Below are positions 22,716 through 26,895 of a DNA stretch of 26,895 nt, piece after piece; the first letter of the stretch is position 1; every line of letters begins with the position of its first letter. The translations under genes were made by a program, and so were the position numbers. The notes under the pieces were generated by a model. That model was not told where the DNA came from and made no database searches. It worked only from the letters and a program-made list of their open reading frames with translations. The stretch covers positions 1 to 26,895 of IMG/VR virus record IMGVR_UViG_3300046004_001028; one strand, written 5' to 3'. Origin of the DNA: a virus.

Positions 22716-23084
22716 ATGCAAAAAGAAATCGAAACACACATCAACGAATTAAAAGCAAGTGACTACGAAGTAATATTGAAGATTTGTGAAATGTATCAAG
22801 TAAAAGAAGAAACGTTTTTTTCAAGCACTAGAAAGATAAACGTAGTCAATGCAAGACACATGGCAGCGTATTACTTCTACAACGTGCGAAGATACACGAA
22901 GTCAAAAATAGCTGAAATGGTATCAGTACCAAAGAAAGACCACACAACTATTATAAGTTCAATTAGAAAGTTTGGGAACTTCTTAGATACAGAACCATAC
23001 ACAGCCGACTTATACGCTACGTTATTAATGCCACGAATCGAATTTACATCACTTAAATACAAACCTAATGCAACTAGAATTTAA
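22716..23084 (+). CDS. Stand-alone DnaA domain IV-like DNA-binding protein
   Basis: 122 aa. Residues 19-88 match the DnaA C-terminal DNA-binding domain: helix EVILKICEMYQV, then RKINVVNARHMAAYYFYNV, the HTH TKSKIAEMVSVPKKDHTTIISSIRKF with the DnaA signature DHTT (75-78). The AAA+ part of DnaA is absent. It starts 3 bases after the exonuclease. It may bind DnaA-box-like sites at a phage origin, or compete with host DnaA. The C-terminal tail is basic. Confidence 0.75.
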   Translation: MQKEIETHINELKASDYEVILKICEMYQVKEETFFSSTRKINVVNARHMAAYYFYNVRRYTKSKIAEMVSVPKKDHTTIISSIRKFGNFLDTEPYTADLYATLLMPRIEFTSLKYKPNATRI

Positions 23085-24433: not shown

Positions 24434-24441
24434 TATATTTG
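24434..24441 (+). promoter_or_regulatory. -7 box (TATATTTG) of the structured RNA leader
   Basis: Exact TAnnTTTG match; start expected at about 24445. No TTG at the ideal spacing. It lies 11 bases after the zinc-finger stop and gives a 120-nt RNA ending in a strong terminator. Confidence 0.6.
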
Positions 24442-24444
24442 CAT

Positions 24445-24566
24445 TCAGTTCTTTAATTAACCGATGCTGTGAGAGGCGTCTAAACAATAACACTTTTTAA
24501 TACCCTTTGCAGGGTTGCCACCTACATACGTAGGCTCTCACTGGTAGTCCTGCAAAGGGATTTTTT
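24445..24566 (+). ncRNA. Structured leader or small RNA with kissing-loop, terminator-ended
   Basis: From the -7 box to the T-tract. Helices: P1 GATGC/GCGTC (24463-24467 with 24476-24480) with loop TGTGAGAG; an 11-bp perfect stem CCCTTTGCAGG/CCTGCAAAGGG (24503-24513, 24549-24559) extended by TTGCCA/TGGTAG; inside it CCTAC-ATAC-GTAGG (24521-24534). The unpaired CTCTCAC (24535-24541) is perfectly complementary to GTGAGAG in the P1 loop (24469-24475). It ends in six T, 5 bases before the ATG of the sigma4/alphaCTD gene. It is either a free small RNA or an attenuator; I do not recognise a known class. Confidence 0.6.
24503..24566 (+). terminator. 11-bp intrinsic terminator before the sigma4/alphaCTD gene
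   Basis: Perfect 11-bp stem with a structured internal region, followed by A and six T. Unless read through or opened, it would stop transcription 5 bases before the ATG at 24572. Confidence 0.75.
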
Positions 24567-24571
24567 ATTTT

Positions 24572-25360
24572 ATGAAAGAAGAAATATCAAAAAAACTAAA
24601 TGTAGACGAAAGGTCAGTAAAGCTAATTTTGTTGGATGAAGAATTATGTAAAAGGATTTTAAAAGAGAACCCTATAAGAATAAACGAATTTATTTTAAAA
24701 TATGGATTAAAATCAGGATTTGTACATAATCTAGCTAAAAGACGTATTATAAGTAGTTTTAGGAATAGCCATAAACAAGGCTCTCCACAATTTATATTTG
24801 AAGAAGAAGCGTTAAGATATGCCAAAGTAGATTATAATTCAAATAGTATGTACCATTCAATTGAAATAATAACTTTTTTATTTGTCCATGCTTGTAAAGA
24901 CATTTTATCTGAAAGAGAAAAAGAATGTATTTTAACTTATTTTAATAGACCTAGCTCAAACTTAGATGAATGGCATTTAACTAGAGAAAGAGTAAGGCAA
25001 ATTAGAATCGGGGCAGTTAAAAAACTTGCAAGATATTCAGATAGAATAAAAAAAGTAGATGAAATACTTACTTTAGAATGTAGATTAAAAGAATTGAATG
25101 ATTGCAAAAAAAGCGTTGAAAGAAAATCAAATAAAAATTTAATCAACAGCATTCAAGATAAGAATAAGAAAATAGATATAAGGGATTTAGATTTAAGTGT
25201 AAGAGCTTTCAATTGTTTAAAGGCTGCTAATATTAATACGGTTGGTGAAATAATTGAAGTTGGGTATGAAAAATTAAAAAGAATTAGGAATATGGGCAAT
25301 AGGTCATTAAAGGAAATATCAGAAACTTTAGAAGAATTAGGATTTACCCCTTTATATTAA
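24572..25360 (+). CDS. Sigma-70 region 4-like HTH fused to an RNAP alpha C-terminal domain
   Basis: 262 aa. Residues about 111-155 (LSEREKECILTYF... LTRERVRQIRIGAVKKLAR) match sigma-70 region 4, with an intact recognition helix TRERVRQI; the first HTH helix is shorter than usual. Residues about 200-260 (IDIRDLDLSVRAFNCLKAANINTVGEIIEVGYEKLKRIRNMGNRSLKEISETLEELGF) are an RNAP alpha-CTD; the DNA-contact residues equivalent to E. coli R265, N268, C269, G296 and S299 are R211, N214, C215, G242 and S245, and K298 is replaced by R244. Residues 1-100 are helical and unassigned. It probably acts on host RNAP at promoters. Its A-rich DNA and Lys/Ile content differ from neighbours, suggesting separate origin. 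Confidence 0.8.
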   Translation: MKEEISKKLNVDERSVKLILLDEELCKRILKENPIRINEFILKYGLKSGFVHNLAKRRIISSFRNSHKQGSPQFIFEEEALRYAKVDYNSNSMYHSIEIITFLFVHACKDILSEREKECILTYFNRPSSNLDEWHLTRERVRQIRIGAVKKLARYSDRIKKVDEILTLECRLKELNDCKKSVERKSNKNLINSIQDKNKKIDIRDLDLSVRAFNCLKAANINTVGEIIEVGYEKLKRIRNMGNRSLKEISETLEELGFTPLY

Positions 25361-25369
25361 GAATTTAAT

Positions 25370-25377
25370 TAACTTTG
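25370..25377 (+). promoter_or_regulatory. -7 box (TAACTTTG) of the second structured RNA
   Basis: Exact TAnnTTTG match, 10 bases after the sigma4/alphaCTD stop. The predicted start (about 25381) coincides with the first bases of the terminator stem, so the RNA's 5' end is locked in the helix. Confidence 0.55.
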
Positions 25378-25378
25378 C

Positions 25379-25438
25379 AACAATAAAGGTTGTGTAGGCA
25401 TACACGTAAAAGTTAGCGTTCTTCCCTTTGTTGTTTTT
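25379..25438 (+). terminator. Intrinsic terminator before the primase/helicase gene
   Basis: The 11-bp outer stem of the RNA above and its five-T tract. The stem is A/U-rich on one side, so it is weaker than the one at 24503-24566. Confidence 0.55.
25380..25438 (+). ncRNA. Second terminator-ended structured RNA/leader
   Basis: About 59 nt. An 11-bp stem AACAATAAAGG/CCTTTGTTGTT (25379-25389, 25425-25435, one U-G) joins the start to the end, with a GTGTA-GGCA-TACAC hairpin inside (25392-25405) and five T at 25434-25438. TTAGCGTT in the loop (25413-25420) is perfectly complementary to AACGCTAA at 25443-25450, downstream of the T-tract; only a read-through RNA could form that pseudoknot or alternative hairpin. 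It ends 27 bases before the primase gene. Confidence 0.55.
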
Positions 25439-25465
25439 AATCAACGCTAAATAAAAACACATTAT

Positions 25466-26895
25466 ATGATTACACTCGAAAGATGTTACCGACTGCTTGA
25501 TAGCGGATTATCATTAGCAACGCTAAACGATAAGAAACAAGCTAACTTCTCATGGAAGATAAATCAAACTACGCCACTTACAAAAGATGAGTTTAAGAAG
25601 CGTTATGAATACGTTGGTGGTATTACATTGAAGGATGGTACTGAAATGGCTGCCACATCAAACATAGCTTTGATAACTGGCTACAACAACATTGAAGTCA
25701 TAGACGTAGATTTAAAAGTATTCCCAACATTACCCGAACAAAATAAGTTTTGGGATGAACTACATGATTATCTTAAATCGAACATAGATGACTTTCATTT
25801 GAAGTTTGTTATCTACAAAACTAAGAATCAAGGCTACCACATTCTATACCGATGCAAGGTTATAGGTGGTAATTTAAAGATAGCCAAACTTAAAGGACAC
25901 AAAGAATGTGTTATAGAAAGCAGAGGCAATGGCGGTTATGTTGTAGTCTATGAGAACAAGATTAGCAAACTTGACTACTTAGAAATTCAAGAGATTACCG
26001 AACGTGATAGGCAAATCTTATGGGATATTTGTAAAACCTTCAACTATGTTGATGAAGAAACGATAATCGAACCCGAAAAGAAACAAGTTACGGAGTACAT
26101 TCAGTCGGACATAACCCCGTGGACTGACTACAACAACAAAACTAATATCTTTGACATCATAGGCGAAGATTTCAAGATAGTTAAGAAACTAGCTACACAT
26201 TACATTATCCTTAGACATGGCGCAACAAGCGTTCAAAGTGGGTATGTTTACATGAACTCAAATTGTATGTACTTATTCTCAACTGGTACGATTTACCCAA
26301 ATGAGAAGCTAGTAAGTCCATATATGGCATATACTATTAAGTATCACAAAGGAGATTTTAAAGCATCAGCTAAGGATTTATACGATAAGGGTTTTGGGTC
26401 GAGAATAGTTAAGAAGAAACCAACCGAAATAAAAGAAACTATCAAGATTAACCATGACCAACTATTGTTTCCTATTGACGTATTCCCAAAAGAAATACAA
26501 GAGTATATCATTGAATGTAACCAAACCTTAGATAGTTCAATAGATTACATGGGTTGTTCTATGTTATGGTTAATATCAGTTATCGTTGGTAATTCTATGC
26601 AAATCGAGGTTAAGAAAGGGTGGTACGAAATGGCTACGATATGGGTAGCGGTTGTAGGTCGTGCGGGATTAGGCAAAACACCTTCGATTAACAATATCAT
26701 ATACCCACTACAAAAGGTTAATTCAAAGAAGATTAAGGACTATATTAGGCAGTATGAGAAGTATGAGGCATATAGCGCATTGAAAGATGAAGAAAAGAAA
26801 CAACATGAACACATTAAGAAGCCTATAAAGCAACAATTCATAGCTAACGATATTACACTAGAGGCATTAATCGACCTTCATCAAGAATCTAACTC
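25466..26895 (+). CDS. Primase-polymerase / helicase protein (3'-partial)
   Basis: 476 codons with no stop at the window edge. Residues about 20-190 are a primase-polymerase-like domain: NNIEVIDVDLK with the metal-binding D80-x-D82, QGYHILYRC as motif II, and CVIESRGNGGYVVVYEN as motif III. Residues about 360-476 begin a P-loop helicase of the DUF3987 type, with VAVVGRAGLGKTPS giving the Walker A lysine K404 and T405. It would prime and unwind phage DNA. Its expression appears gated by the RNA leader at 25380-25438. The start ATG follows an A-rich stretch. Completeness cannot be judged. Confidence 0.8.
   Translation, partial: MITLERCYRLLDSGLSLATLNDKKQANFSWKINQTTPLTKDEFKKRYEYVGGITLKDGTEMAATSNIALITGYNNIEVIDVDLKVFPTLPEQNKFWDELHDYLKSNIDDFHLKFVIYKTKNQGYHILYRCKVIGGNLKIAKLKGHKECVIESRGNGGYVVVYENKISKLDYLEIQEITERDRQILWDICKTFNYVDEETIIEPEKKQVTEYIQSDITPWTDYNNKTNIFDIIGEDFKIVKKLATHYIILRHGATSVQSGYVYMNSNCMYLFSTGTIYPNEKLVSPYMAYTIKYHKGDFKASAKDLYDKGFGSRIVKKKPTEIKETIKINHDQLLFPIDVFPKEIQEYIIECNQTLDSSIDYMGCSMLWLISVIVGNSMQIEVKKGWYEMATIWVAVVGRAGLGKTPSINNIIYPLQKVNSKKIKDYIRQYEKYEAYSALKDEEKKQHEHIKKPIKQQFIANDITLEALIDLHQESN

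Follow-up and report, generated by a model that had tools for sequence, protein, structure and literature searches.

The primase locus and its leader

The stretch of DNA analyzed here (26,895 bases; hereinafter the window) represents a complete virus record, whose right end cuts off a gene coding for a Prim-Pol/DUF3987 primase-helicase (25466..26893, + strand; Pfam PF09250 and PF13148, PHROG 19930). The promoter type, together with protein families such as DUF3127, points to Bacteroidota as the host phylum. The gene upstream of the primase (24572-25360) codes for a protein that joins a weakly matching sigma-70 region-4-like stretch to an RNA polymerase alpha C-terminal domain (E 1.7e-21); it has no PHROG match and is a candidate phage transcription regulator adjoining leaders of the kind described below. 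Farther upstream (22716-23081), between the exonuclease and the DUF3127 single-strand-binding protein, we observed a protein matching the C-terminal DNA-binding domain of DnaA only.

In front of the primase, a -7 promoter box TAACTTTG (25370..25377, + strand), which is an exact match to the Bacteroidota sigma-A consensus TAnnTTTG, is followed on the same strand by a predicted structured RNA. Its outer stem P1 is formed by a 5' strand CAATAAAGG (25381..25389) and a 3' strand CCTTTGTTG (25425..25433), and can be extended by 25379-25380 and 25434-25435, respectively. Enclosed within P1 are a first hairpin, P2 (GTGT-AGGCAT-ACAC, 25392..25405), an invariant junction GTA (25406..25408), and a second hairpin, P3 (25410..25423), in which AAG (25410-25412) pairs with CTT (25421-25423) around the loop TTAGCGTT (25413-25420) in the fold of the window RNA; in most relatives P3 is 4–7 bp long. 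P1 is succeeded by a U-tract (25434..25438), a candidate termination site, and by site A (AACGCTAA, 25443..25450), which is the exact 8-nt complement of the P3 loop, provides the 3' strand of a pseudoknot, and ends 15 nt upstream of the primase ATG.

The original prediction, made from the letters of the window, had recognized this 8-nt complementarity, raised the prospect of a stabilized read-through state or a pseudoknot in the primase leader, and pointed out that its downstream half can only be made after read-through; site A does lie beyond the U-tract, such that it would require read-through if termination occurs there. It had further described an 11-bp stem running from the predicted first transcribed base to the T-tract. 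The 11-pair stem is present (25379-25389/25425-25435, with one U-G pair, followed by T's to 25438), but with the canonical start it would not begin at the first transcribed base. In Flavobacterium psychrophilum the sigma-A box TAnnTTTG spans -12 to -5 (PMC9723704); given the box at 25370-25377, this spacing places +1 near 25382, so that about 8 of the 11 stem pairs would be transcribed. Within the window alone, the loop pairing could be due to chance: AACGCTAA occurs on either strand in five copies (12825, 18046, 25413, 25443 and 25519) against 1.2 expected, and the 61-nt short RNA reaches a folding z-score of just -2.2. Relatives were therefore needed to settle the matter. We dropped a role for the additional copy inside the primase gene (25519-25526) because two homologous loci, L035 and L012, do not keep it.

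Homologous leaders define an RNA family

A scan of the viral collection for RecE-like exonucleases yielded 46 loci, about half of them with the same primase at 76–81% identity; direct scans of this collection with the window primase and the sigma-4/alpha-CTD protein gave no matches. A homologous leader is recognizable at five of these loci (L035, L012, L033, L003 and L046, which comprise three distinct leaders besides that of the window, plus L035), the leaders of the others being unrelated. The homologous versions share the pattern AAAGGUUG nnn AGGCAU nnn CGUAAAA, and elsewhere their differences preserve base pairs. Further members came from scanning the viral collection for the pattern and from a search with a Lin1244_N protein followed by a covariance model, bringing the family to 32 distinct leaders from 50 viral contigs (contigs counted by hand from their names). 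With this model (R1), members score 40–79 bits and anything else at most about 26 bits. The window leader, which has the family core of the P1/P2/P3 three-way junction with GGUU..AGGCAU..GUAAAA, scores 64 bits both with R1 and with a wider model, R2, for which the next match is at 16.7. Searching the remaining exonuclease loci, and most of the motif-free Lin1244 loci, with R2 recovered no extra members. The motif occurs once per record in the seven records that were searched whole. An outlying member (L198:7136-7212) scores 40 bits, and its loop match includes the AUG. Three loci with the motif letters and no corresponding structure (L053, L057 and L059) were excluded, as were the 19 matches of a pattern scan of genome contigs, of which those read were inside coding sequence or without structure (best 26 bits).

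Samples of Bacteroidota genomes, namely 249 genomes of the family of one Flavobacterium and 395 genomes of its phylum, contained no member by model or pattern; control records were detected, but the model scored only 13–20 candidates per genome. Searches of Rfam 15 with the window and nine member loci returned no family at the gathering score and only chance matches at E up to 10, and comparison of the leader DNA with known phages found no similarity. In the literature searched, we found no paper on such an RNA family or on RNA control of replication genes in Bacteroidota phages. The family of structured RNAs is real and, to all appearances, hitherto uncatalogued; it is absent from Rfam 15.

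Covariation supports a three-way junction with a pseudoknot

In an alignment by hand of eight leaders, the 24 pairs in four helices are paired in 93.8% of cases, and 14 of them change on both sides, against 8.9 in shuffled alignments (0 of 500 shuffles reach 14); in the pseudoknot, all seven pairs change on both sides. Among the 32 leaders aligned by the model, P2 covaries at each of its four pairs with 100% of cells paired, and two-sided changes are seen in 92 cells, compared with 25 in shuffles, in an alignment that itself leans towards the model; the count of pairs with two-sided change in this larger set is not above that of its shuffles. P1 has been rewritten repeatedly (e.g., AAAAGG/CCUUUU, AGUGGG/CCUACU, UAUCGGG/CCCGAUA and AGCUAAAGG/CCUUUAGCU). 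The conservation of the two 8-mers in related phages, on which the original prediction had staked its case, holds for the pairing and not for the letters. Chance pairing without function, to which the copy number of the 8-mer in the window had left some room, is refuted by this covariation along with the permutation results given below (0 of 5000), and its probability is negligible.

At the level of the predicted RNA, the comparison of leaders shows that P1, P2 and P3 form a three-way junction whose core is constant, that a U-tract follows P1, and that the P3 loop and site A make up a pseudoknot. The 3' strand of P3 abuts that of P1, with at most one base between them, in nearly all members; P3 is therefore probably stacked on P1, with UU and GUA linking P2. 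The P2 loop AGGCAT, like the GTA junction, is invariant among all collected members, and the constancy of GGUU, AGGCAU and GUAAAA is in part a product of searching with these letters. The same core is found in the members of the primase clade, which were identified by protein homology, and in L098, L099 and L101-L103, identified by protein homology and the model. What had been claimed for the pairing is right and understated: beyond it, the relatives bring out P2, a junction whose core stays constant, the presence of homologous leaders ahead of replication genes of unrelated kinds and, at the start codon, a second site complementary to the loop in 28 of 32.

The promoter box and a candidate termination site

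A box that matches TAnnTTTG exactly (6/6) lies upstream of 23 of the 32 leaders at a near-fixed distance from P1; the spacing between the box and the GG of P1 is 5–6 nt in most members and 9–11 nt in the primase clade, and two leaders (L003 and L046) have no box at the usual place. At the canonical start distance about three P1 pairs would be transcribed in most members, yet P1 covaries over six or seven; therefore, outside the window type, the start sites are probably closer to the box, or RNA from upstream also contributes.

A run of at least four T's follows P1 in 30 of the 32 members (all but L193 and L198), compared with 7 of 32 in an upstream control stretch. This arrangement fits an intrinsic terminator built on P1, with termination predicted at the U-tract. 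P1 would make a weak terminator stem, since many members have two or three G-C pairs in it, and a strict terminator scan did not list the site in the window.

One loop with two complementary sites

In most members, we found a second complement of the P3 loop, site B, at the start codon of the downstream gene, ending 0–5 nt before the ATG. For 28 of 32 leaders, the loop:B pairing has a predicted energy of -5.6 kcal/mol or lower. Site B is absent from the window, L003, L012 and L035 (-0.6 to -2.0 kcal/mol, with -1.1 in the window); it is a common and not a family-defining feature, and the window is a variant devoid of it. Across 18 different loops, the match of each loop to its own start region has a mean score of 14.6, against 10.55 (sd 0.53) when the loops are permuted, and that to site A has a score of 18.6 against 11.1; in either case none of 5000 permutations reaches the real value. 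Sites A and B are mutually exclusive partners of one loop, and in 29 of 32 leaders the pairing with A equals or exceeds that with B in strength.

The loop and its two sites change together. For instance, L103 and L216 are identical at 40/40 upstream and 24/24 core bases and differ in the loop, A, B and the downstream gene, and conversely L052 and L058 have the loop, A and B in common before different genes; the loop/A/B set therefore moves as a unit that is not tied to the type of protein. By analogy, this joint change resembles the specificity of antisense and immunity RNAs.

As the loop, A and B amount to an inverted and a direct repeat beside replication genes, we considered whether they might be DNA-level sites, such as operators or origin elements of the replication protein, that mimic RNA pairing. 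G-U pairs are indeed sparse among the internal loop:A pairs (5 of 191), as would suit DNA repeats, but the covariation of P1, P2 and P3 is that of RNA helices (U-G pairs being frequent in P2), the distance from the end of A to the ATG varies from 14 to 22 nt, and the motif is independent of the downstream protein type, as in L052 and L058. We accordingly regard this explanation as very improbable.

Functional implications of the leader RNA

The genes behind the leaders code for proteins of unrelated families: Prim-Pol/DUF3987 (window, L012), Lin1244_N (L048, L050, L052), DUF6291 (L058, L176 and others), DUF1376 by a weak match (L179 type), and DnaB (L205). With one exception they are replication genes or probable initiators of replication, and not members of one metabolic pathway; the exception is L198, where a 52-aa reading frame of no known kind lies downstream. 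The family probably controls the timing and amount of phage replication; a single RNA fold placed ahead of five or more kinds of replication protein would amount to a control device of general use. Two other roles were considered and set aside. Lysogenic immunity as the main role sits poorly with the absence of the integrase (PF00589) from 22 records, all of them fragments, and a plasmid-type countertranscript with the lack of any general antisense TAnnTTTG box in the leaders, four members of the L179 type being the exception.

As the leading model, we tentatively propose that 25381-25450, situated in the 5' leader of a phage replication gene, serves as a structured RNA regulator, from which a short terminated RNA acts in trans on the read-through mRNA and damps expression of that gene. 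Transcription from the TAnnTTTG box would have two products, a short RNA of about 57–65 nt ending at the U-tract and an mRNA that reads through into the replication gene. Within the mRNA, the P3 loop would be occupied by site A of the same molecule; the short RNA lacks A, and its loop would remain free to pair in trans with the mRNA, either at site B over the start codon, as in most members, or at site A, as in the clade of the window. Expression of the replication gene would then be damped as transcripts accumulate, amounting to a feedback or copy control that may also exclude related phages, with specificity carried by the changing loop/A/B set. The strongest argument for this proposal comes from the relative strengths of the two pairings: since loop:A is as strong as loop:B or stronger in nearly all leaders, A should win in cis, and B is best explained as the target of another molecule devoid of A, namely the terminated RNA. 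The IsrK and P4 CI RNAs and the IncI-alpha replication leaders, compared below, are precedents that lend the model plausibility. The case is weaker for the window itself because, in the absence of site B, only site A could be the target. The sign of the effect could also be the opposite, by analogy with IsrK, which activates.

The main rival to this trans-acting model is a switch in cis, in which the P3 loop would pair either with A, leaving the start open (on), or with B, covering it (off), and a ligand or protein bound by the core UU/AGGCAU/GUAAAA would set the balance, making for a possible translational riboswitch-like element. The constancy of core positions that are unpaired, in 32 leaders before unrelated genes, would fit such a sensor, although it stems in part from searching with that core; the mutual exclusion of A and B likewise suits a switch, and a precedent exists in the preQ1-III riboswitch, where a pseudoknot between a loop and the 3' tail is proposed to cover the ribosome site (PMC11625349). 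However, with loop:A matching or exceeding loop:B in nearly all leaders, B would seldom prevail within a single molecule; a ligand sensor would not be expected to have its loop, A and B replaced jointly between leaders that otherwise do not differ; and B is missing in the primase clade. On balance, we hold a cis switch to be rather unlikely.

Alternatively, the RNA might be a 5'-terminal knot that stabilizes the mRNA or tunes its translation without switching, or else an element that modifies the elongating RNA polymerase, as the put RNA of phage HK022 does. Its position at the very 5' end of the transcript, directly behind the promoter, in almost all members would agree with this, as would the universality of the pseudoknot as opposed to site B; yet such a knot explains neither the U-tract nor why 28 of 32 leaders have a second loop complement at the start codon, and we deem it improbable.

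Returning to the trans-acting RNA, it is conceivable, if somewhat doubtful, that these are trans RNAs of exchangeable specificity, whereby the matched loop/A/B set of each lineage would limit replication of its own phage and of others of the same type while sparing the rest. This would be akin to the same-type replication shut-off of plasmid incompatibility, here in phages without sign of an integrase. If joint replication of phages turned on their matched loop/A/B sets, superinfection relations would be readable from sequence and directly testable.

Other leaders of similar logic and comparison with known systems

Leaders of comparable logic were observed in other sequence contexts. The leader at 24434-24571, before the sigma-4/alpha-CTD gene, has a TATATTTG box and a terminator hairpin CCCTTTGCAGG..CCTGCAAAGGG-ATTTTTT directly before the ATG at 24572, and the hairpin loop CTCTCAC is complementary to an upstream GTGAGAG; this is probably the first terminator-ended RNA of the original prediction. 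In L013, L042, L044, L005, L043 and L016, an unrelated leader occupies the 130 nt upstream of the same primase, in which the loop of a 5' hairpin pairs with that of a CCCTCA..TGAGGG terminator before the ATG; its covarying sets (CTGGTAC/GTACCAG, ATGGTAC/GTACCAT and CTAGTCC/GGACTAG) reveal the same logic in a different RNA. Upstream of a Lin1244-type gene in L117 and L146, there is again a terminator just before the ATG, with the loops GTTCGCAG and GTTCGTA complementary to upstream CTGCGAAC and TACGAAC, respectively.

Control of replication genes by structured RNAs is known from plasmids and from the phage elements P4, IsrK and c4 of Proteobacteria. The c4 antisense RNA of phages P1 and P7 (Rfam RF01695) is transcribed in the sense direction along with its target, and its pairing takes place close to the ribosome site of the gene downstream. 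It differs from the present family in having two recognition loops in place of one and in targeting antirepressor genes, and the leaders have no Rfam match.

In IsrK of the Salmonella prophage Gifsy-1, the short form of the RNA has as its target in trans the isoform made by read-through (PMC4825925). As in our model, a phage leader gives both a short terminated RNA and a read-through mRNA, with the short acting on the long; unlike it, IsrK activates an antirepressor operon rather than a replication gene, and no three-way junction with a constant core is described for it. The two were compared by description, and we saw no relation in sequence or structure. The CI RNA of phage P4 pairs with seqA and seqC and thereby holds off the replication genes (as cited in PMC4825925); it is cut from a longer transcript. 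It similarly derives from a leader and has two complementary sites in its own transcript, as in 28 of 32 relatives here (one site in the window); its sites, however, flank the RNA and act by early termination, whereas here both lie downstream, one of them at the start codon.

Plasmids of the IncI-alpha and IncB groups have rep mRNAs controlled by a pseudoknot with which an antisense Inc RNA competes (as cited in PMC10724649). The likeness is that the leader of a replication initiator contains a pseudoknot and that loop bases set the specificity; in contrast, the regulator there comes from an antisense gene of its own, whereas in our set only the four L179-type members have an antisense TAnnTTTG box. 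The preQ1-III riboswitch, whose stem-loop is proposed to pair with a 3' tail near the translation start (PMC11625349), differs in consensus and in the genes controlled, the leader family matching no Rfam entry. The family may be regarded as a variant of leader-encoded control RNAs, the mechanism set out above being our proposal for how it may operate.
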